Below, piece after piece: positions 4,400 through 44,050 of a stretch of 64,000 nucleotides of DNA; position 1 is the stretch's first letter, and each line of letters starts with the position of its first letter. The notes below the pieces were generated by a model that worked only from the letters and a program-made list of their open reading frames with translations, had not been told where the DNA came from and made no database searches. Made by a program: the position numbers and the translations under genes. The DNA lies in assembly GCF_030055435.1 (NCBI RefSeq), contig NZ_JASFYG010000002.1:83224-147223 (forward strand), written 5' to 3'. The stretch comes from Methanothermobacter sp. GTDB taxonomy: Archaea > Methanobacteriota > Methanobacteria > Methanobacteriales > Methanothermobacteraceae.

Positions 4400-5557
4400 C
4401 TAAATGTCCCTGTTAAACCTGGTAACCCCCATTGCAAAGAACAGGAGTGTGAATCCCACAAGCACGGCCAGGTCAAGCCAGATGTCCCCGACACCCGCAC
4501 CCTTCAGCATCACTGACCTCAGAGCGTCGTTGGCATAGGTGAGGGGCACCAAGTAGGCCAGCTTCTGGAACACCCATGGCATGGTCTCGATGGGGTAGAA
4601 GACCCCTGATACAAACATCATGGGCATTGCAAAGGGCATAACCATCTGCATATAGTCCTCCTGGGTCCCCACCCTCGCTGATATCATTATTCCGAATCCC
4701 ACAAAGCACAGTGCTGTGAGTACAAGTAGAAGGACTGTAAGGAGCATGCCGCCGTTGATCTTTATTCCAAAGAGCATTATGGCCACACAGAGTAGTAAAA
4801 ATGCTCTTCCACTTTCTATAACCAGTTTTGAGATTATTTTACCCCCAACAACTGTTGAAACGCTTGTAGGGGTCATGAAGAGACGTGCGAGTTCTCCCCT
4901 CTCCCTTTCACCTGCAATTGACTGTCCCATACCGAACATGCAGGAGAACATTATGGTCATTGCAAGTACCGCGGGCACCAGGAAATCCATGTACTTGACG
5001 TCCCCGTAGATCCTGTCAACCTGGAAGTTTATCGTGTTTACGATGCTCTGAAAGCCCGTTTCCATGGGGGTTGAATTCTGGTTCTGAATATTCACAGAGG
5101 GGCTCTGCATCTTCTGAACCGCAATTTCACCTGAAAGCCTGCTGAAAAGCGCCTGGGTTGCAGGTACCAGGGCCTGACTTGCCAGCTGGTCAGATGAGTC
5201 AAGGTACATGACCACTGTTGGCTCGTCTGTGAGGTTGTCATAGTTTGGGGGCAGTATTATTGCCGCCTTGACCTCCCCTGCATCCACCATGTCCCTTGCG
5301 GTTTCAGGGTCCTTCATGATATCCTTAATATCGTAGAGGCTCATGTTCCTCATTTCAGCGACGGTCTGGTCTGTGAGGGGCCCGCTGCTCTGTTCAACTA
5401 TAACCACCGGTATGTTTTCCAGTGTACCGCCCATACCGTAACCGAAGAGGGTTATCATGAGTATTGGGAACAGTATGATTGATATGAGGCGGGGTTTGTG
5501 CCTCCAGAGGACTATGAGGTCCTTCTTGAGCATCCACATTATCTTCTTCATTTCCAT
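4400..5557 (-). CDS. ABC-2 type transporter permease
   Basis: The 385-residue protein has one N-terminal membrane helix (LISIILFPILMITLFGYGMGG), an external domain of about 150 residues, then five to six C-terminal helices. This is the layout of ABC-2/YhgE-YbhR-type permeases. The segment IAGERERGELARLFMTPTS is the usual cytoplasmic coupling loop, and the GVFYPIETMP stretch is also typical. It starts after a strong GGAGGTAACC site, five bases downstream of the ATPase gene, with which it must form the exporter. The substrate (drug, lipid or peptide) cannot be read from sequence. Confidence 0.9.
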   Translation of the reverse strand: MEMKKIMWMLKKDLIVLWRHKPRLISIILFPILMITLFGYGMGGTLENIPVVIVEQSSGPLTDQTVAEMRNMSLYDIKDIMKDPETARDMVDAGEVKAAIILPPNYDNLTDEPTVVMYLDSSDQLASQALVPATQALFSRLSGEIAVQKMQSPSVNIQNQNSTPMETGFQSIVNTINFQVDRIYGDVKYMDFLVPAVLAMTIMFSCMFGMGQSIAGERERGELARLFMTPTSVSTVVGGKIISKLVIESGRAFLLLCVAIMLFGIKINGGMLLTVLLLVLTALCFVGFGIMISARVGTQEDYMQMVMPFAMPMMFVSGVFYPIETMPWVFQKLAYLVPLTYANDALRSVMLKGAGVGDIWLDLAVLVGFTLLFFAMGVTRFNRDI

Positions 5558-5562
5558 AACGG

Positions 5563-6612
5563 TTACCTCCCTGTAACCTTCATAAAGACATCCTCAAGTG
5601 AGGGGTCCCTAGTTGAAATTGAGCTTATCCTGGCATTGTTCCTTATAACTGCCCCGAGGACATCATTTATGGCAGTGTCACACCTCTCATCCAGTTCAAG
5701 TATTATCCTGCCGGTGTGGTGCCTTTTAACCTCCAGTGTAACCGGCAGGGATTCAAGTTCAGCTATGAGTTCATCACTGAGGTCGGTGATCAGCATGCTG
5801 AGCTCCTTACCGGCGCAGGTCCCGGCTTTTTTCATTTCCTCAATGACCCTTTTTTCGGATTCAGGGGTCTCCTCCTGTATCCTGTCAAGTATGGTACCAG
5901 TCTCCCGTGCCCTTAGGGATTCCTCTTCCCTTATAACGGTGTCCTTGAGGTCCTGGGGTGTGTCAAAGGCTGCAAGCAGCCCCTGATTTATTATACCCAC
6001 GTAGTCACAGAGGAGTTCAACCTCGTACATGTCATGGGAGCAGAGTATGATAGTGTGGCCGCTGCTGTTCAGTTCCTCAATGAGGTCCCACAGCACCCTC
6101 TTTGTTGTCGGGTCCAGTCCTATGGTTGGTTCGTCGAGGAAGAGTATGTCTGGCTGGTGTATCAGGCTTGCAACCAGTGAAACCTTCTGCTGCTGTCCCC
6201 CTGACATCTGTCCAACGGGTTTATCTGCCGCGTACTTTATGTCAACCAGCTCCATGAGTTCATCGATCCTTGTTTCCTTGAGGTCCTCTGGCATCCCGTA
6301 GAAGTCTGCGCACAGTTCCACGTTCTCCCTTGCTGTGAGGTCCTCGTAGAGGCTGACCTTCTGGGGGACCATACCTATATGCTGTCTCACCTCGTCGGGG
6401 TTCTCCAGTATATCGTATCCGGCGACACGGGCCGTGCCTGAGGTGGGGGGTATGAGACAGGTGAGCATCTTTATTGTTGTGGTCTTACCTGCCCCGTTGG
6501 GTCCCAGGAACCCGAAGATGGAGTTCTTCTCTATCTTCATGTTGAGGCTGTCAACTGCTTTGAAGTCCCCGTAGACCTTTGTGAGGTCGTAGGTCTCTAT
6601 GGCGTATTTCAT
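5563..6612 (-). CDS. ABC transporter ATP-binding protein
   Basis: The 349-residue ATPase has Walker A GPNGAGKTT (about 38-46), Q-loop, signature MSGGQQQKV, Walker B ILFLDEPTIGLD and switch His (CSHD), all intact. A C-terminal extension of about 100 residues beyond the NBD core is common in ABC-2 drug/lipid export ATPases (DrrA/CcmA-like). Its ATG overlaps the stop codon of the PadR gene by four bases, so translation is probably coupled. It energises the permease encoded next. Confidence 0.92.
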   Translation of the reverse strand: MKYAIETYDLTKVYGDFKAVDSLNMKIEKNSIFGFLGPNGAGKTTTIKMLTCLIPPTSGTARVAGYDILENPDEVRQHIGMVPQKVSLYEDLTARENVELCADFYGMPEDLKETRIDELMELVDIKYAADKPVGQMSGGQQQKVSLVASLIHQPDILFLDEPTIGLDPTTKRVLWDLIEELNSSGHTIILCSHDMYEVELLCDYVGIINQGLLAAFDTPQDLKDTVIREEESLRARETGTILDRIQEETPESEKRVIEEMKKAGTCAGKELSMLITDLSDELIAELESLPVTLEVKRHHTGRIILELDERCDTAINDVLGAVIRNNARISSISTRDPSLEDVFMKVTGR

Positions 6613-7031
6613 TCTTCCTCCTCCCTCTCACATGGGAACATGTCGTTCCAGAACTCCTCCCATATCCTTGAGATGTGGTTTTTCATTATATCACGGATTC
6701 TCTCTATTGTTTCATTGCCCAGTGGGGTTATCTCGTAGTACTTGACCCTCTTCTCCCCGTGCATCTCCCATGAACCCCTTATGAGCCCCTTCTTCTCCAG
6801 GTCGTGGAGTACTGGGTAGATGACGCTTGGACCTGGCGGTTTGATCTCCTGGCAGTGCATCCCCTTGATTGAATAGAACTTCTCAAGTCGTCGCATTATC
6901 TCGTATCCATGGATCTTTTCCCTGCTTATCATCCAGAGGATCATTGTTTTTCCGAATCCCCTCATGAAACTCTTTATTATTTTCTCGTCAAACTGTCCCC
7001 CCTCTCCAGGGGAGCCATTTTCTGCACACAT
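6609..7031 (-). CDS. PadR-family transcriptional regulator
   Basis: The winged-helix core is clear: ILWMISREKIHGYEIMRRLEKF, then PSVIYPVLHDLEKKGLIRGSWE and KYYEITPLGNE, typical of PadR/PhaR-type repressors. The open frame extends to 7076, but I start at ATG 7031. It has a GGAG site just upstream, and the TATA box at about 7078-7088 leaves no room for a start at 7076. It overlaps the ABC ATPase by four bases. PadR proteins often control adjacent exporters, and the twin palindrome at 7050-7075 is the natural operator, implying autoregulation of the whole unit. Confidence 0.88.
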   Translation of the reverse strand: MCAENGSPGEGGQFDEKIIKSFMRGFGKTMILWMISREKIHGYEIMRRLEKFYSIKGMHCQEIKPPGPSVIYPVLHDLEKKGLIRGSWEMHGEKRVKYYEITPLGNETIERIRDIMKNHISRIWEEFWNDMFPCEREEEE

Positions 7032-7049
7032 CAGGACATCTCCAGAAAG

Positions 7050-7075
7050 TGATATATCAATTTTCTGATATATCA
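7050..7075 (-). promoter_or_regulatory. Twin palindromic operator of the padR-ABC operon
   Basis: The self-complementary 10-mer TGATATATCA occurs twice, at 7050-7059 and 7066-7075, with a 6-base gap (16-base period). On the minus strand the TATA-like AGTATATATAAAAC lies just upstream (about 7077-7090), so the palindromes cover the expected transcription start. Assignment to PadR is inference from position. Confidence 0.7.
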
Positions 7076-7103
7076 TGTTTTATATATACTTTTTGGTGGT
7101 AAG

Positions 7104-7300
7104 ATGAAGGTAAAGTTGAGTTAGCACTGAAACAGCTGATCACCACACACTATCAGGTGAAGAGGAATGCCCTTCACATCCAGCCAATGTTCAGGTTCAC
7201 TGTAGACGCCTTAACACCGCAGGACCCTGCAGATCCAGGCACCTATAAGTATCTTTCATTTTCAGAGGGAATGGAAACACTCATAAGGCCGGCTGAATAG
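7104..7300 (+). pseudogene. Frameshifted small gene divergent from padR
   Basis: A forward TATA (TTTTATATATAC, about 7078-7089) and GGTGGT site precede ATG 7104, but that frame stops after six codons (MKVKLS). A second frame is open to TAG 7300 and reads LALKQLITTHYQVKRNALHI, followed by PMFRFTVDALTPQDPADPG and YKYLSFSEGMETLIRPAE. One lost base near 7120 would give a 65-residue protein. I do not recognise the family. It could be a decaying gene or an unrelated open stretch; the promoter and ribosome site favour a former gene. Confidence 0.45.
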
Positions 7301-7319
7301 AAAACCAACCGGGATCTAT

Positions 7320-8066
7320 ATGAGGCTCGGATTTTCAACCCTGGCACTTTTCATGGAACCAATGGAGAACATCCTGGAGAAAGCAGAGGAGGACGGCTTT
7401 CAACTTCTTGAAATACTCTGCGAAGGACCCTACTGGCCCCGGAGGCTCCTTCAAGATGGGGCAGCACTGGAGGTATTTGAATCCTTCGACCTTGAGATAC
7501 TCCTCCACGCCCCCACAATAGACCTGAACCCCGGCAGCATGAACCAGGGCGTAAGGGAGGAGACAGAAAGACAGATGATTGAGACGGTGGAACTCGCATC
7601 AAGGATAGGGGCAACGACCGTAACAACCCACCCGGGTCTTGTGCACAGGAGAGAAGAGAGGATAAGGAACACGGCCCTTAAATTCGCAGCTGAAACACTT
7701 AAAAACTGCGTGGCCCATGCAGAGGATTCATCGGTAAAGTTCTCAGTTGAGAACATGCCTGGCAGGTTCTCATACCTCTGCAACAGCCCCCGTGAGCTTG
7801 CAGAATTTTCAGAGGAATGCGGATCATATGTGACTGTGGATGTGGGCCATGCAAACACCACAGATTTCCTTGAGGATTTCCTCAGGATGGAGAGAATAGC
7901 CCACCACCACCTGAGCGACAACAACGGTGAAAGGGACCAGCACCTCCCCCTGGGGGAGGGTACCGTTGACCTTGAACTCCTCCGGGGGATAAAACGTGGG
8001 GTGATAGAACTGAATAACTATGAGGGAGTCATAAAGAGCAGGATAATCCTGGAATCCTTTTATTGA
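7320..8066 (+). CDS. TIM-barrel sugar phosphate isomerase/epimerase family protein
   Basis: The 248-residue protein fits the AP-endonuclease-2/xylose-isomerase-like TIM barrel. Candidate metal ligands are conserved: HAP (strand 3), THPG, SVENMP (Glu), DVGHA (Asp/His), HHHLSDN and the ERDQHLPLGEGT strand near the C-terminus. The family contains sugar isomerases, epimerases and endonuclease IV; the substrate is unknown. The start ATG at 7320 is the only good one (GFSTLALF is the first strand), with a weak ribosome site. It lies between two decayed genes. Confidence 0.75.
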   Translation: MRLGFSTLALFMEPMENILEKAEEDGFQLLEILCEGPYWPRRLLQDGAALEVFESFDLEILLHAPTIDLNPGSMNQGVREETERQMIETVELASRIGATTVTTHPGLVHRREERIRNTALKFAAETLKNCVAHAEDSSVKFSVENMPGRFSYLCNSPRELAEFSEECGSYVTVDVGHANTTDFLEDFLRMERIAHHHLSDNNGERDQHLPLGEGTVDLELLRGIKRGVIELNNYEGVIKSRIILESFY

Positions 8067-8076
8067 GGCGTGAAGC

Positions 8077-8625
8077 ATGAGGAAGAACAGAATGGAGGGC
8101 CTCGTGGATGAATATTCGTCATTGCAATGACACTCCTTCTCGGCATTAAAGTACCAGAGGGGATCATAACAGAGTCCTCAATGGCTTCATACCTCACACT
8201 CCTCGCCCAGGATCTACATCTACTGCCTCAGCTTCCTCCTCCTCGGGATTTTCTGCGGGTTAACCACATGCAATTTGAAAATCTGAAGGGGGTTGACACG
8301 GTTTTTCCTGCGGATAAACATATTCTGCTGATGTTCGTGGCCATGGTGCCCTATCAACGGAACTCACAGGAGACTATGGAGGACTTGTGACATCCAGTGT
8401 CATATTCCATGTTAATATGCTGATGATAGCCTCCACTATCTGCAAGCTGGTTCTACGACTATAAAAATGGGCTCATGGATCTTGAAAGGGAACAGTACCT
8501 GAGGGCACTTGAGAGGAACCTTCTGATGCCATTTGCAGCAAATCGTGGCGCTCCTGCTAACACCATTCACCCCCGAGTACAGCTCCATTGCCTATACAAT
8601 CATGTTCCTCAAAAGATTCCTCTAG
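8077..8625 (+). pseudogene. Decayed TMEM175 (DUF1211)-type membrane channel gene
   Basis: No frame is open throughout, but joining frames gives a continuous membrane protein. Frame of 8077: RMEGLVD. Then IFVIAMTLLLGIKVPEGIITE (about 8113-8214); YIYCLSFLLLGIF (from 8215); VNHMQFENLKGVDTVF (from about 8254); ILLMFVAMVPY; STELTGDYGGLVTSSVIFH and VNMLMIAS; WFYDYKNGLMDLEREQYLRA; IVALLLTPFTPEYSSIAYT and IMFLKRFL, ending at TAG 8623-8625. The opening R-x3-LVD-x-IFxIAMTLL and the following helices match prokaryotic TMEM175 K+ channel homologues (family signature RxxxFSD). At least six small indels are needed, while neighbours are intact, so this is true decay rather than base-calling error. Confidence 0.8.
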
Positions 8626-8686
8626 ATGGGTCTAGGCATGAAATCGGTGAGGCGCAGCACGGCGATATTTGAGTTCCTTTAGGTTA

Positions 8687-9037
8687 TCATGGCCTTATAT
8701 AGGCCCATCCATCGCACTGTTTTCTGACAATCTCACCTACACCCGAGGATACGGTATCAACACCATCAACAAGTTTCCCTGAGGTTATACCCAATGCCTT
8801 CAGGGTGTTGGAACAGGCAGCGAATCTGACACCATCATCAATGAGCTCATAGATCATATCTGAGTACTCCGAGTCCCTCATGAGGGCATTGACACCCTTT
8901 GAGTACGCCACAACCTCAATCTCAACATTCTGAATGTCTGCCATCAGGTTCCTCACATTGGCAAAAAGCAGCAAAACCCTCTCATCGTCATCCTCATCTA
9001 GGTGGAAGACTGCACGGTAAACCCTCTCATCATCCAT
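8687..9037 (-). CDS. DsrE-family sulfur-relay-like protein
   Basis: The protein (about 116 residues) has the DsrE/DsrF/YchN-like alpha/beta pattern: YRAVFHLDEDDDERVLLLFANVRN, VEIEVVAYSKGVNAL, then GVRFAACSNTLKALGI with one Cys at the position that carries persulfide in this family. The open frame begins at GTG 9046, but GGTGAT overlaps that codon and points to ATG 9037 or 9040. It lies 22 bases downstream of the SoxB-like gene on the same strand. A role in handling bound sulfur is inference from family and neighbour. Confidence 0.75.
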   Translation of the reverse strand: MDDERVYRAVFHLDEDDDERVLLLFANVRNLMADIQNVEIEVVAYSKGVNALMRDSEYSDMIYELIDDGVRFAACSNTLKALGITSGKLVDGVDTVSSGVGEIVRKQCDGWAYIRP

Positions 9038-9068
9038 CATGATCACCAGAGCTTTTGCTTGAAGACAA

Positions 9069-10493
9069 TCATACTGGTGTTATCCTCCCATCGAGTTCGG
9101 CATCAACAGGGCTGTTCTTCTCAACGTACTCCCTGAGGGCCTCAACGGCCCTTATGTCCATCTCCTCATGGTTGTCACCGTAACGTGATGGCACACCCTG
9201 ACTGGTTACATAGACTGCAGTGTAGGTTCTATCTGGATCAAGGGGTTTCCCATTCACGAATATCTTCTGTATCCGGCTACCGGGCGGGTTCTCTATCTTG
9301 AAGTAGATCTCAAGGCCCATGCACCTCTTGAGGTAGCCCCCCATCTGCCTGTAGGGGTCCCTGGAGAATGTGAGCTCAATGTTCTCCTCCATCATCTCCA
9401 GGATTTCCCTCCCCAGAAGTTCAACACGGGATACCGGGGGATTAACAGGGATCATGTTCCAGAGGTCCTCAACCCTGATATCCCCCGGGGGTACCGGGGC
9501 ACCGTAGCGCCATCCATTGGAGAATGCAAGTTCAGATTCACCAACACCCATTATCGCCTTGAGTAGAAGGTTGTCCATGGTTGACTCAAGTATGGTGTAC
9601 CTGTTGAGATGCGTCCTTGTTGAACCCACGGTGGCCTCAAGGTAGTCCCTGTCCACATCAGACGCCCTCATGACCAGCTCCTCAACATCCTCATTTGACG
9701 GACCTCTGACCCTTACAAGTTCGTGTTTGAATTTCCGGACACCACCATCAACCTCAAGGTCAAGGCGACCAATGAATGAGCCATGGCACCCTGACTGTAT
9801 TATGATGGTGTCATTGACAATGAAGGGCCTCTCGAGTCTGTTGTGGGTGTGGGCGCTAAGAAGCACGTCTATACCATCAACATCCGCTGCCAGCTGGCAC
9901 TCCTGGGGGAAACCCAGATGTGATATGACCACCACGAGGTCCACCCTCTCATCATCACGGAGCACCTCTATCCAGTAGGGGAGTTCATCACGTCCAAGGG
10001 TGAACTCAAGGCCCTCACTGAAGCGTGGGGGCATCACCTTATCCACTATATTGGATGCTATCCCCACAACCCCCACCTGGAGGTCACCCCTCTCCACTAT
10101 CTCATATGGTCTAAAGGCAAGGCGTTCTGTCCCCTCATGGTAGCAGTTTATTGCAAGAACAGGATGATTCAGTTTTTCCGCTACTTCCATGAATCTTTTG
10201 GGTCCATAGGCGAACTCCCAATGGGCAGTCATGGCATCAAAGCGCATTTCATTGAGTATGGGAACGAGGGCCGCACCCTCGCTCTTCACGGCATGGTATG
10301 TGCCGTGTATGGTGTCACCACAGTCAAATAGTAGTGTTGGTCCCTCTTCACGTATACCAGCCACAAGGCCCGCTATGTGGTGGTAGCCCCCCAGGGTCTC
10401 ATACCTTATATTTCTGCCCTCCCAGAAGAGTTCCGGGTGGGGTTTCAGGTATCCGTGGGTGTCATTCACCTGCACGATGCACAGTTCACTCAA
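9069..10493 (-). CDS. SoxB/5'-nucleotidase-like metallophosphoesterase
   Basis: The 474-residue protein has the two-domain 5'-nucleotidase layout. N-terminal metal motifs: VNDTHGY (Asp/His), DCGDT, AHWEFAYG, VVISHLGFP and SAHTH. The HWEFxYG form replaces the common GNHEFD and is, as I recall, characteristic of SoxB-like members. The C-terminal nucleotidase domain includes NGWRYGAP and DLWNMIPVNPP. No signal peptide, unlike secreted nucleotidases or SoxB, so it should be cytoplasmic. The start is TTG 10493 after a GGGGGG stretch. It is co-oriented with HAD and DsrE-like genes. It could be a nucleotidase, UDP-sugar hydrolase or a thiol-S-sulfonate hydrolase. Confidence 0.8.
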   Translation of the reverse strand: MSELCIVQVNDTHGYLKPHPELFWEGRNIRYETLGGYHHIAGLVAGIREEGPTLLFDCGDTIHGTYHAVKSEGAALVPILNEMRFDAMTAHWEFAYGPKRFMEVAEKLNHPVLAINCYHEGTERLAFRPYEIVERGDLQVGVVGIASNIVDKVMPPRFSEGLEFTLGRDELPYWIEVLRDDERVDLVVVISHLGFPQECQLAADVDGIDVLLSAHTHNRLERPFIVNDTIIIQSGCHGSFIGRLDLEVDGGVRKFKHELVRVRGPSNEDVEELVMRASDVDRDYLEATVGSTRTHLNRYTILESTMDNLLLKAIMGVGESELAFSNGWRYGAPVPPGDIRVEDLWNMIPVNPPVSRVELLGREILEMMEENIELTFSRDPYRQMGGYLKRCMGLEIYFKIENPPGSRIQKIFVNGKPLDPDRTYTAVYVTSQGVPSRYGDNHEEMDIRAVEALREYVEKNSPVDAELDGRITPV

Positions 10494-39163: not shown

Positions 39164-39178
39164 TTGATGGTGAGGACG

Positions 39179-41902
39179 ATGGGGGGTATACACGAGCTTC
39201 ATGAGGAAGAGGTTTTCAGGAGGCTTGAGACGTCACCCTCTGGCCTTGACCCCCCTGAGGCTGAAAGGCGCCTTAAGAAATATGGTCCCAACGAACTTGA
39301 GGAGGTCAGGGGTAAACCACACATACTTGTCTTTCTATCCAACCTTTACAATGTACTGGCGATCCTCCTCTGGGTATCAGCTGCCCTGTCGCTCATCACA
39401 GGCAACACCCAGCTTGCAGTTGCGATTGTACTTGTAATAATCATAAACGCGGTTTTCAGTTTCTGGCAGGAATATGAGGCCGAGAAGGCTGCAGAGGCCC
39501 TGAAGGATATTCTGCCGGTTATGGTTAAGGTTCTGAGGGGCTCAAATGAAACTGTTATCCCTGCGGCTGAGGTGGTTCCTGGGGATCTGATCCTTCTTGA
39601 GGAGGGTGACACGGTTCCGGCAGATGCAAGGCTTGTTGAATCAAGCCAGCTCAAGATTGACGCATCCACCCTTACAGGCGAATCAAAACCTGTCAGAAAG
39701 GTGTCGCATCCAGTTGAAAAATTCGATAATTACATAGATATCGATAACATCGTATTTGCAGGTACACAGGTGGTATCAGGGACAGGAAGGGCCATAGTAT
39801 TTGCAACAGGAGGGGATACAGAATTCAGCAGGATAGCATCCCTTACACAGGAAGTGCGAGAGGAGCCAAGCCCACTTCAGAGGCAGATATCCCGGGCTGC
39901 CAGTATCATAAGCATTCTCGCAGTTTCAATGGGCATTGTTCTTTTTGCAGTCAACCTCTACATTGTTAAACTCCCCCTCGAGACTGCGCTCATCTTTGCA
40001 ATAGGGCTCATGGTTGCAAATGTACCTGAGGGCCTTCTACCAAGCGTAACACTGGCGCTTGCAGCATCAGCAAGGAAGATGGCCAGGGAGAACGCCCTTG
40101 TGAAGAGACTCTCCAGTGTGGAGACACTGGGATCCACAACAATAATCTGCACAGATAAGACCGGGACCCTCACAAGGGGTGAGATGACAGTAAGGAAGAT
40201 CTGGATACCCTACAGGGTCGTGGAGGTCACAGGTTCAGGCTACAGGCCAGAGGGGGAATTCCTCTGCAACGGAAACCCCGTAACCCACCGGGAGGTAAGG
40301 GAGATAAGACTCTTAATGAGGGCGGCGTCATTCTGCAACGATGCAAAACTTGTTAGAGACGAAAAGGGCTGGCACGTGATTGGGGACACAACAGAGGGCG
40401 CACTACTTGTGGCTGCAGAGAAGATAGGCTTTGACCTTGAGGGTGAACTTGAGAGGATGCCCAGGGTAATGGAGCTTCCCTTTGATTCAAAGCGAAAGTC
40501 GATGACCTCAATCCATCAAAAATCAGGTAAAAGGGTGGCCTACGTAAAGGGAGCCCCGAAAAAGATAATAGATTTATCAGAGAGGATATCAGTTGATGGG
40601 AGACCCAGACCACTGGATGATGATGAAAAAAGGAAGATCATAGAAATACATGACAGAATGGCCTCTGAGGGTCTCAGGGTACTTGCATTCGCTTACAGGG
40701 AACTCCCGGAGGACCTTGAGGATTACACACCGGAGAATGTTGAAAGGGAACTGACACTGGTTGGAATGGCTGCAATGCATGACCCGCCTAGGGAGGGTGT
40801 GAAGGAGGCTGTGAGGCAGTGCAGAACTGCAGGTATAAGGATAATAATGATAACCGGGGATTACGGTCTAACAGCCGCAGCCATAGCAAAGGAACTTGGA
40901 ATAATAGAGGGCGATAGCTACAGGGTGATAAAGGGAAGGGAACTGGATGAAATGGAAGACCCTGAACTTTTAAGGATACTTTCTGAGGAGGAGAACATAA
41001 TATTTGCCCGGGCAGTCCCTGAACACAAGATGAGGATAGCATCGGTCCTTGAGGGCGCCGAGGAGATAGTTGCAATGACAGGTGATGGGGTAAATGATGC
41101 CCCTGCCCTCAGGAAGGCGGATATTGGCGTTGCAATGGGTAGCGGCACCGACGTTGCAAAGGAGGCCGCTGACATAGTACTCGCCGATGACAACTTTGCA
41201 AGCATTGTAACTGCGGTGAGGGAGGGCAGGACGGTATATGAGAACATAAGAAAATTCATAACCTACATATTTTCACATGAAACCGCAGAGATAGTTCCCT
41301 TCGTCCTCATGGTGCTCTTTGGAATACCCCTACCCATAACAATAATGCAGATACTTGCAATAGACCTCGGTACCGATACACTGCCTGCCCTTGCTCTGGG
41401 AAGATCCCCACCTGAATCTGATGTGATGCAGAGGCCGCCAAGACCGGTTAAGGAGAGACTACTTAACCTCGAGGTCCTCCTCAGGGGGTACCTGTTCACA
41501 GGATCCATTGAGGCATTCCTTGTGATGATGGCATACTTCCTTGTGCTCTCAGGGGGAGGATGGGTGCCAGGCCAGAGCCTCCCTGCAGATGACCCCCTCT
41601 ACCTAAGGGCCACAACTGTGGTCTTTGCAGGTATAGTGATGGCCCAGATGGGCAATCTCCTCTCATCACAGACCACCCGCTCCTCAGCACTGAAAGTGGG
41701 GCTTCTGAGGAACAGGTGGGTACCCGCTGGCATGATATTCGCAGTCATTGTGATGCTGATGGTCATATACCTGCCCCCACTGCAGCCGGTTTTCGGGACA
41801 CAGCCACTGAAACCGGTTGAATGGCTGATGATCATCCTATTTGCTCCACTGGTTTTCCTTACAGATGAGGCGAGGAAGTTAATTCAGAGAAGGCTTGGTT
41901 GA
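39179..41902 (+). CDS. Cation-transporting P-type ATPase, Na,K-ATPase-like (P2)
   Basis: About 907 residues with full P2 architecture: N-terminal cytoplasmic segment (DPPEAERRLKKYGPNEL), TGES, phosphorylation site ICTDKTGTLTRGEMT (Asp about 326), TGDYGLTA and TGDGVNDAPAL hinge, and C-terminal helices. Helix M4 reads VANVPEGLLPSVTLAL and the following ARENALVKRLSSVETLGST stretch resembles Na,K-/H,K-ATPases (P2C) more than SERCA (which has VAAIPEGLP). It may move Na+, K+, H+ or Ca2+. The start at 39179 follows GGTGAGG. It lies 111 bases before a one-helix protein and MthK. Confidence 0.88.
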   Translation: MGGIHELHEEEVFRRLETSPSGLDPPEAERRLKKYGPNELEEVRGKPHILVFLSNLYNVLAILLWVSAALSLITGNTQLAVAIVLVIIINAVFSFWQEYEAEKAAEALKDILPVMVKVLRGSNETVIPAAEVVPGDLILLEEGDTVPADARLVESSQLKIDASTLTGESKPVRKVSHPVEKFDNYIDIDNIVFAGTQVVSGTGRAIVFATGGDTEFSRIASLTQEVREEPSPLQRQISRAASIISILAVSMGIVLFAVNLYIVKLPLETALIFAIGLMVANVPEGLLPSVTLALAASARKMARENALVKRLSSVETLGSTTIICTDKTGTLTRGEMTVRKIWIPYRVVEVTGSGYRPEGEFLCNGNPVTHREVREIRLLMRAASFCNDAKLVRDEKGWHVIGDTTEGALLVAAEKIGFDLEGELERMPRVMELPFDSKRKSMTSIHQKSGKRVAYVKGAPKKIIDLSERISVDGRPRPLDDDEKRKIIEIHDRMASEGLRVLAFAYRELPEDLEDYTPENVERELTLVGMAAMHDPPREGVKEAVRQCRTAGIRIIMITGDYGLTAAAIAKELGIIEGDSYRVIKGRELDEMEDPELLRILSEEENIIFARAVPEHKMRIASVLEGAEEIVAMTGDGVNDAPALRKADIGVAMGSGTDVAKEAADIVLADDNFASIVTAVREGRTVYENIRKFITYIFSHETAEIVPFVLMVLFGIPLPITIMQILAIDLGTDTLPALALGRSPPESDVMQRPPRPVKERLLNLEVLLRGYLFTGSIEAFLVMMAYFLVLSGGGWVPGQSLPADDPLYLRATTVVFAGIVMAQMGNLLSSQTTRSSALKVGLLRNRWVPAGMIFAVIVMLMVIYLPPLQPVFGTQPLKPVEWLMIILFAPLVFLTDEARKLIQRRLG

Positions 41903-42013
41903 TCAGATATTTTCAGACATGGGACCGGGAACTTAATCCTCATCTGGTATCAGAATCTTTCAGAAATTTTTTAATAATGCAAATTAGAAACGTATTGCAG
42001 AGGAGGTGCCTTA

Positions 42014-42286
42014 ATGAGATGGATTGCACTTTTGCTTTTAATGGTATTTATTGCCGGCGCCATTGAAGCATGCGCTGCACAAGACTCAGATCCCATGAAA
42101 CCCAAAATCAAGAGGGGTGGATTCAGCGGATTTAAGGGTTCATCAAAGAAGCTCAAAACAGATCTTGACGATGATGACGATGATGGGGGCTCCGGTAGCT
42201 GGTGGCTTCTTGCAGCTATTGTGATTGTTCTGATTGTTGGGATGGTCCTGGCCTACATATTCTTCACAAGGCGTGGAACCCCATAA
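42014..42286 (+). CDS. Small exported one-helix protein with an Asp-6 motif
   Basis: A 90-residue protein with cleavable-looking signal peptide ([21 protein letters not shown]), a basic Gly/Lys-rich segment ([20 protein letters not shown]), six consecutive Asp ([13 protein letters not shown]) and one C-terminal helix ([22 protein letters not shown]) ending TRRGTP. Topology would place the acidic patch outside against the membrane. The ribosome site AGGAGGTG is strong. It ends 13 bases before mthK, so the two are almost surely co-transcribed. No family recognised; an ion-channel or pump accessory role is inference. Confidence 0.75.
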
Positions 42287-42299
42287 AGGGCAGGGTAAT

Positions 42300-43310
42300 A
42301 TGGTGCTCATAGTTGAGATAATAAGGAAACACCTACCACGGGTTATGAGGGTACCTGCTGCACGGATATTCCTCCTTGCAGCGGGGGTCATCACCTATGG
42401 AACCCTTGGATTCCACTTCATTGAGGGTGAATCATGGACGGTCTCATTCTACTGGACCTTTGTAACCATAGGGACCGTGGGTTATGGAGACTACAGCCCA
42501 TCAACACCACTGGGGATGTACTTCACCGTGACCCTCATAGTCCTGGGTATAGGGACATTTGCCATTGCAGTTGAGACACTCCTTGAATTCCTGATAAAGA
42601 GACAGCAGATGAGGCTTATGGGGCTGATAGACGTGGTTAAATCAAAACATGTGGTTATATGTGGGTGGAGTGAGAGCACACTGGAGTGCCTGAGGGAACT
42701 CGGTGGAAGCGAGGTCTTTGTGCTCGCTGATGATGAGGGTGTCAGGAAGACTGTCCTCAAGAATGGTGCCAACTTTGTGCATGGAGACCCAACAAGGATA
42801 TCTGACCTTGAAAAGGCCAATGTAAAGGGTGCAAGGGCAGTTATAGTTGACATGGAGTCTGATTCAGAGACAATACACTGTATACTGGGGATAAGGAAAA
42901 TTGACTCCAGTGTGAGGATAATAGCCGAGGCCGAACGCTATGAGAACATCGAGCAGATCCGGATGGCCGGCGCCGACCAGGTAATCTCACCATTTGTTAT
43001 ATCAGGCAGGCTTATGTCAAAGAGTATCGATGATGGCTATGAGGCAATGTTTGTACAGGACGTTCTTGCAGAGGAATCTACACGGAGAATGGTTGAAGTT
43101 CCAGTACCCCCTGAAAGTCCCATTGAGGGCATTTCGGTCCTTGAAGCGGACATCCATGAGAGGACTGGTGTGATAGTAATCGGTGTGGGACGGGGTAATG
43201 AACTCATAATAGACCCACCCAGGGATTATGTATTCAAAGAGGGTGATATAATCCTTGGTATAGGGAAAAATCATGAGATAGATCGTCTGATGGAATACAT
43301 CGGGTCATGA
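42300..43310 (+). CDS. mthK: Calcium-gated potassium channel MthK
   Basis: About 336 residues, aligned from memory over its whole length with the MthK protein. Two pore helices flank the filter TVGYGD (residues 59-64), preceded here by Gly58 instead of Ala. The RCK domain begins at Met107 ([21 protein letters not shown]). Residues for the known Ca2+ site appear intact (Asp184 in IVDMESDSE; Glu210 and Glu212 in AEAERYE). It forms a tetramer gated by Ca2+ through an octameric RCK ring. The frame opens upstream inside the preceding gene; ATG 42300 is the start. Confidence 0.96.
42611..42620 (+). promoter_or_regulatory. Internal ribosome binding site for free RCK
   Basis: GAGG (42611-42614) precedes ATG 42618-42620, codon 107 of mthK. 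MthK is known to be made also as a soluble RCK fragment from this Met; the site is preserved here. Confidence 0.65.
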
Positions 43311-43319
43311 TAACTGGAA

Positions 43320-44018
43320 TCACGGCCATATAACAGGTATCCGCCTTAGGGGCTCAACACGCACAGAATCATCAAGAAGTGTGCGGAAGGAATATGCTAT
43401 CACATTCACACCTTTACCATGGGCTTCTTTCAGTGCATATGAAAATTCAGGGTCCATATCAGTATTTGGAGAGAAATAACGTGCATTTTCACCAAAAACC
43501 AGAAAAAGGACGCTGCTTTTATAGCCCATGGAGAGCGCAGATGCAAGCTCCTCAACATGCCTCCTTCCCCTCACTGTGGGGGCATCAGGGAAGAGTGCCA
43601 TCTCACCATTTACAAGGGTACAGCCCTTAACCTCAACAAGCATTTCTTCAGTTCCCGATGAGAGAAGGAAATCAATTCTGCTTCTTCCAAATCTGCACTC
43701 TCTTTTTTTCACCCTGAAACCACGGAATTCGTCAACAAGCTCTGATTCTATAAGGCTGGCTGCGATGTCACTGTGGAAACCGGAATTCACAAGGACCCAC
43801 TCATCCCCCCTTCTGAGTGCTATGACATCAAATTTGGTTTTCCTTTCTTTTCCAGCGGCTTTCCTAACAATGACCTCATTTCCAGGTATAAGAAGCTCCC
43901 TGAGCCTACCGGGATCCTTGAGGTGGGCCAGACTCCTTTCACCACCCACATCAACAACCATGGTGAACCTGTTGGGTCTTTCAAGGTATCTTCCCATAAG
44001 GGGATTATCTATGATCAT
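43320..44018 (-). CDS. sfsA: SfsA family nuclease-like protein
   Basis: About 232 residues, typical SfsA length. Features: RYLERPNRFTMVVDVGGE, then HLKDPGRLRELLIPG, the SRIDFLLSSGTEEMLVEVKGCTL region with acidic and Lys residues similar to PD-(D/E)xK nucleases, and FPDAPTVRGRRHVEEL. Named for maltose effects in E. coli, but DNA binding/nuclease activity is more plausible. GGATGG before ATG 44018 sets the start. It ends next to mthK, convergent to it. Confidence 0.88.
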   Translation of the reverse strand: MIIDNPLMGRYLERPNRFTMVVDVGGERSLAHLKDPGRLRELLIPGNEVIVRKAAGKERKTKFDVIALRRGDEWVLVNSGFHSDIAASLIESELVDEFRGFRVKKRECRFGRSRIDFLLSSGTEEMLVEVKGCTLVNGEMALFPDAPTVRGRRHVEELASALSMGYKSSVLFLVFGENARYFSPNTDMDPEFSYALKEAHGKGVNVIAYSFRTLLDDSVRVEPLRRIPVIWP

Positions 44019-44050
44019 GGTAACCATCCTTATATACTAATTTGACTTAA

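Follow-up and report, generated by a model that had tools for sequence, protein, structure and literature searches.

The window analysed here is a stretch of 64,000 nucleotides (nt) of Methanothermobacter sp. DNA on contig NZ_JASFYG010000002.1, from a genome of 1.67 Mb in 10 contigs. It contains, consecutively on the plus strand, the genes for a P-type cation pump, a small protein with a signal-like N-terminus and the Ca2+-gated K+ channel MthK. A preliminary description had reported this order, with the small gene ending 13 nt before mthK, and both the order and the distance were confirmed from the open reading frames (ORFs). It had also proposed that the small protein may be an unnoticed auxiliary subunit of MthK or of the pump. 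The features of the locus are the following, with positions given in the window.

42014..42286, plus strand: gene of a small, presumably exported one-helix protein of 90 amino acids (aa), candidate accessory subunit of MthK; a conserved coding ORF
42300..43310, plus strand: mthK, orthologue of the Ca2+-gated K+ channel, 336 aa; assigned by PDB matches and domains
42287..42299, plus strand: intergenic gap of 13 nt, measured from the stop codon of the small gene to the ATG of mthK
41960..42013, plus strand: likely promoter and Shine-Dalgarno sequence of the pair, AAATTTTTTAATAA and GGAGGTG; assigned by inspection
39164..41902, plus strand: gene of a P2-type cation ATPase resembling Na,K-ATPase; a neighbour, judged to lie outside the unit
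43320..44027, minus strand: sfsA-like gene (a name we take to be correct), convergent neighbour adjoining mthK; a flank marker outside the unit, found in 12 of 12 mthK genomes

Judged from its sequence, the channel is the orthologue of the crystallised MthK of Methanothermobacter thermautotrophicus (1lnq). The best PDB matches were MthK itself (1lnq and others, residues 1-335), and the protein has a K+ pore of two transmembrane segments with TVGYGD at residues 59-64, followed by TrkA_N and TrkA_C domains. The residues D184, E210 and E212, which we take to form the Ca2+ site, are present. Upstream of the pair, GGAGGTG immediately precedes the ATG of the small gene, and by eye both this sequence and the promoter element are retained in the four closest genomes. 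The 13-nt gap is too short to hold a separate mthK promoter in the window genome.

The small gene and mthK in Methanobacteriales

The distribution of both genes was surveyed in 150 genomes of Methanobacteriales. A channel match at E <= 1e-10 was found in 89 of them. Twelve genomes encode an MthK orthologue (67-100% identity), and in the other 77 the best match was 26-34% identical to MthK. With a profile of the small protein, scores of 100-137 bits were obtained in 11 genomes; 41 of the 150 gave some match at E <= 1, and the best among the other 30 reached 20.6 bits. These 11 genomes are the 12 mthK genomes minus a single one, G149, and no comparable match was found in the 138 genomes without an mthK orthologue. 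The ORF immediately upstream of mthK, on the same strand, is the small gene in each of the 11, with gaps of 13, 16, 17 and 18 nt in the four closest genomes and of 59, 65, 66, 69, 71, 102 and 102 nt in the seven others.

The preliminary description had made its proposal depend on linkage of the two genes in other genomes, and such linkage was found (upstream in 11 of the 12 mthK genomes, 0 of the 138 others), so that the proposal was not refuted. The small gene, which it had suggested looking for beside mthK in all Methanobacteriales, is there in 11 of the 12 mthK genomes and not in the whole order, as true mthK itself is present in only 12 of the 150. With the exception of G149 the small gene is thus inherited with the channel gene, as looked for in an auxiliary subunit of a K+ channel. 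That in the genomes searched the small gene never occurs without MthK, and MthK once occurs without the small gene, fits an accessory subunit of a pore.

On a tree of YchF (43 rows), the distribution of the mthK genomes needs at least three changes, also when well-supported branches alone are counted. The pair is accordingly present in three lineages, f1 (presumably Methanothermobacter), g17 and g19, and each of them adjoins relatives on the tree that lack both genes. In G137, a tree neighbour of g19, the flanking genes are conserved, both genes of the pair are missing, and 23 nt separate the pump ORF from the sfsA ORF. In G008, next to g17, both are missing as well and a phosphoesterase-like ORF lies 102 nt from sfsA. 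This ORF is 75% identical to its counterpart in g17, where the pair sits between the phosphoesterase-like ORF and sfsA. The G008 assembly is fragmented (490 contigs), yet its contig spans the empty junction. In the f2 genome G002, a 546-aa ORF is found instead between pump and sfsA. At the level of genome evolution, the link between the small gene and MthK is supported.

Upstream of the small gene, the g17 genomes carry the phosphoesterase-like ORF (divergent, about 300 aa) and a membrane ORF of 726-727 aa (L074 4756-7858, L075 3121-6178, L076 8502-11559, with L168 7311-9515 listed alongside). In G005 a likely relative of this membrane ORF, recognised by eye, is situated between sfsA and cob.

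The small protein

In the window protein, a hydrophobic N-terminus that by inspection resembles a signal peptide is followed by a Lys-rich stretch, a run of six Asp and one hydrophobic C-terminal helix, which starts near two Trp and is followed by two Arg and three further residues. The signal-like N-terminus would place the six-Asp run outside the cell. AlphaFold2, run on the single sequence, predicted helices at residues 2-22 and 61-87 with nothing between them, at low confidence (mean predicted local distance difference test score 63.7). An uncleaved N-terminal helix would bring the number of helices to two.

This plan of a signal-like N-terminus, charged stalk, single helix and basic end is kept across the 11 members although the residues vary, identity being 28-48% outside the closest group. 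In all 11 proteins, 6-9 acidic residues lie within the 22 residues preceding the helix and RR or KK follows it, the latter being also consistent with the general positive-inside rule. Ahead of the acidic juxtamembrane part there are 3-6 basic residues; this stretch is net basic in f1, and acidic and basic residues are about equal in g17 and g19. The six Asp stressed in the preliminary description are not conserved as a run, though acidity at this place is kept in 11 of 11. Towards the end of the signal-like segment (window 42014-42079), a Cys is, by eye, present in all 11 relatives; a lipid anchor is a conceivable reading.

The ratio of nonsynonymous to synonymous substitutions (dN/dS, Nei-Gojobori) of the small gene is 0.10-0.64 and below 1 in 12 of 12 within-group pairs; the highest ratios, including the 0.64 pair, belong to pairs in which dS is low and codons are few. 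For mthK the ratios are 0.02-0.08. The small gene is under purifying selection, which is far weaker than that on mthK. These ratios, together with the position beside mthK in 11 of 12 genomes, show that the small gene is more than chance. In the four closest genomes, its dS (0.10-0.20) is lower than that of mthK (0.25-0.33), possibly as noise from 90 codons.

No known family could be assigned to the small protein, as searches of Pfam, NCBIfam and PDB sequences yielded no match above chance level. Among its Pfam matches at E <= 1 there was neither a leucine-rich repeat family nor FXYD, and no FXYD motif was seen in the sequence. Two anchor-type NCBIfam matches (E 0.17 and 0.39) were far below the cut-off for a C-terminal sorting or anchoring domain. 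No paralogue was found in its own genome, in which nothing besides the protein itself matched at E <= 10 with the single sequence or at E <= 1 with a hidden Markov model (HMM).

To gauge how specific the arrangement is, the 12 MthK loci and 23 loci of distant RCK channels were screened with a shape filter that asks for a hydrophobic N-terminus, a polar middle and a C-terminal helix. The distant loci have flanks of at most about 1.5 kb, some cut by contig ends, and 18 of them, from the order, represent 77 genomes. The filter recovered the small gene in 11 of the 11 loci that have it and made two false matches in the 12 MthK loci, one in G149, at an internal start of the pump, and one in G144, on an antisense ORF. 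At the 23 distant loci no same-strand gene of the small type was found, the single match being antisense inside the channel gene (L049). Within 319,790 bases of the window's own contig, 3 of 442 ORFs with a Shine-Dalgarno-like site passed. Besides the small gene these were an ORF with two helices, situated at the edge of a stretch, and a 103-aa ORF of the same overall shape on the minus strand of L149 near 2319, which is presumably CbiN, itself a small extra subunit of a cobalt transporter.

Outside the order, a contig scan yielded five loci with channels 25-36% identical (records near the window were possibly omitted), and 29 genomes of one other phylum yielded three channels, 32-33% identical. 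The shape filter gave no same-strand gene of the small type at the five loci L129-L133, with L064-L066 lying outside the scan and no wider archaeal or bacterial search made.

At L169 (G043, 4477-7882), L170 (G017, 6118-10405) and L171 (G013, 6329-10099), distant RCK channels of 378-417 aa, about 30% identical to MthK, lie one gene from an sfsA-like gene. The intervening ORF of 506-534 aa is presumably NnrD-like, and no small-type ORF is labelled there.

A candidate accessory subunit of MthK

We see about an even chance that the small gene makes up a two-gene unit with mthK, in which the small protein is a dedicated, modulatory and non-essential membrane subunit of MthK. What stands of the earlier proposal of an unnoticed MthK subunit is the linkage at genome level (11 of 12, 0 of 138), and as a whole it is partly supported. 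We infer the topology of the protein, its co-transcription with mthK, its physical binding and any effect on gating along the following lines. The small protein would be exported as a type I protein, N-terminus outside, and made together with MthK. Its single helix would pack beside the outer helices of the MthK pore, with the short charged stalk at the outer mouth and the terminal basic residues at the inner membrane face. The likeliest effect would be a shift in the ease of pore opening, for example at less Ca2+, comparable to the way BK gamma subunits shift BK gating, or an altered local cation concentration at the mouth. Concentration of cations by the acidic stalk, as first suggested, is possible; a shift in gating or a stabilisation is equally possible. 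We consider it rather unlikely that MthK, the textbook example of a stand-alone Ca2+-gated K+ channel, is natively two-component with a BK-gamma-like one-helix partner that permits opening at physiological Ca2+. If this were true, single-helix tuning of RCK channels would exist in archaea as in animals, by convergence.

Several observations weigh against an accessory subunit. Linked genes can be removed by one deletion, so that their joint absence indicates a cassette and not a complex. Conservation extends to the entire block: the sfsA-like gene, itself not likely to be a partner of MthK, also adjoins mthK in 12 of 12 genomes, and adjacency and conserved order are therefore modest evidence by themselves. 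In seven relatives the 59-102 nt separating the two genes would leave room for mthK to have its own promoter. The small protein changes at a much higher rate than MthK (dN/dS 0.10-0.64 versus 0.02-0.08), and eleven sequences do not suffice for a coevolution analysis. Purified MthK gates alone. Moreover, G149, a genome in one contig, keeps mthK at 83% identity without an intact small gene, which indicates that MthK can persist without the small protein and that the latter is not obligatory. The G149 MthK shows no obvious region of relaxation, with no clear regional signal, the pore included.

The pump-mthK gap in G149 measures 426 nt, and the small-protein HMM gave no significant match in it. 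Local alignment of the gap DNA gave weak and mixed results, with 7, 81, 69 and 1 of 300 Markov shuffles reaching the score for G148, G144, G147 and G143, respectively. A decayed small gene had been suggested by eye and was dropped in view of the non-significant HMM result and the weak shuffle statistics; our claim is that there is no intact copy.

It is possible, and we give this tentative weight, that the small protein is a cell-surface peptide with a role of its own, for instance one associated with the wall or binding cations, which shares a transcript and stress regulation with MthK and is kept and lost with it without contact. A stalk that is short, charged and predicted to be unstructured would suit such a peptide, as would the low conservation outside the closest group (28-48% identity), the single deletion needed for joint loss and the persistence of MthK in G149. 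However, the pair has been retained in three lineages while the block varies at other junctions, few ORFs in the part of the genome that was sampled have this shape (3 of 442), and no homologue was found in the 138 genomes without MthK.

Improbable, in our view, is a role of the small gene in setting the amount of MthK, either as a leader in translation or as a helper of membrane insertion, without yielding a stable subunit. The small gene comes first, is preceded by GGAGGTG and lies 13-18 nt from mthK in the four closest genomes, as such a role would suggest; in seven others, however, the gaps are 59-102 nt, selection acts on the protein sequence and not on the frame alone, and MthK is made well in E. 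coli without the small gene.

We regard it as very improbable that the small protein belongs to the Na,K-ATPase-like pump as a subunit in the manner of FXYD proteins, which the preliminary description had offered as its second option. The pump gene adjoins the small gene in the f1 genomes, but five genomes (G001-G004 and G137) have a pump orthologue (63-69% identity) and lack the pair, and conversely the small gene is present and no pump orthologue was found in G138 and G140 (the latter in about 140 contigs). In G139 and G142 other ORFs separate pump and small gene. In G148 (G148:C4, L070) the pump gene is broken, a match to residues 2-724 with a stop being followed by a separate 185-aa ORF, and the small gene and mthK beside it are intact. 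As the distributions of pump and pair are decoupled, a pump partnership was rejected and the pump is judged to be a bystander outside the two-gene unit.

The pump had been called P2C-like, a fair label in that its nearest relatives are Na,K/H,K-ATPases (best PDB chain Na,K-ATPase alpha-4). Membership is not established, since the best NCBIfam model, Na,K/H,K subfamily IIC (TIGR01106), scored 654 bits against a cut-off of 946; the next, PMR1-type Ca, scored 639 bits. The pump ORF has alternative ATG starts at 39167 and 39179, the second being the one used earlier. A second P-type ATPase, 41% identical to the window pump, lies at G000:C1:119101-121686.

Finally, a chance ORF or annotation artefact is hardly credible. 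The ORF is short and fast-evolving, with one pair at dN/dS 0.64 at low dS, but 11 genomes conserve its frame and the same plan at identities as low as 28%, and dN/dS is below 1 in 12 of 12 pairs.

Comparison with known channel and pump subunits

To our knowledge, MthK has been studied as a channel alone, made in E. coli, and the purified channel requires millimolar Ca2+. In the literature searched on auxiliary subunits, operon, physiological role and genomic context of MthK, no partner was reported, most subscription papers lying outside the search. The Delta-H locus tags, which we take to be MTH1518, MTH1519 and MTH1520, were absent from the literature searched. The accounts of MthK in the available portions of PMC4319557, PMC4565861 and PMC6768053 mention no partner, and PMC4565861 states that auxiliary subunits are left out of its scope. 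MthK is a major model K+ channel, and the conserved gene lying 13-102 nt before it raises the possibility that a complex is formed natively. Such a partner could bear on the unexplained Ca2+ sensitivity and physiological role of MthK. As far as we know, no archaeal RCK channel has yet been assigned a dedicated one-helix accessory subunit, and the small protein would be the first. If confirmed, it would represent a new protein family of a known kind, the channel auxiliary subunits.

Small one-helix proteins of P-type pumps include the FXYD proteins, KdpF and MgtS. The small protein is like them in being a small one-helix protein near an ion transporter, and differs in that its gene is linked to a channel and not to a pump. 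The BK beta subunits (KCNMB), which the preliminary description had named as one-helix proteins, have two membrane helices and a long extracellular loop, so that this analogy is off in helix number. They share with the small protein that they are small auxiliary proteins of a Ca2+-gated K+ channel, and the topologies would match if the N-terminal helix were uncleaved; with its signal-like N-terminus and one helix, the small protein differs from them.

The BK gamma subunits offer a better analogy. As described in the available portion of PMC4197896, these proteins (LRRC26 and relatives) have a cleaved signal peptide, an ectodomain and one helix followed by basic residues, and they shift the gating of a Ca2+-gated RCK channel. 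The small protein lacks leucine-rich repeats, has a short stalk instead, and does not match any known family or PDB chain in sequence. It resembles the BK gamma subunits in its signal-like N-terminus, presumably outer N-terminal part, single helix and basic tail, and in that its putative partner is likewise a Ca2+-gated RCK K+ channel (PMC4197896, available portion).

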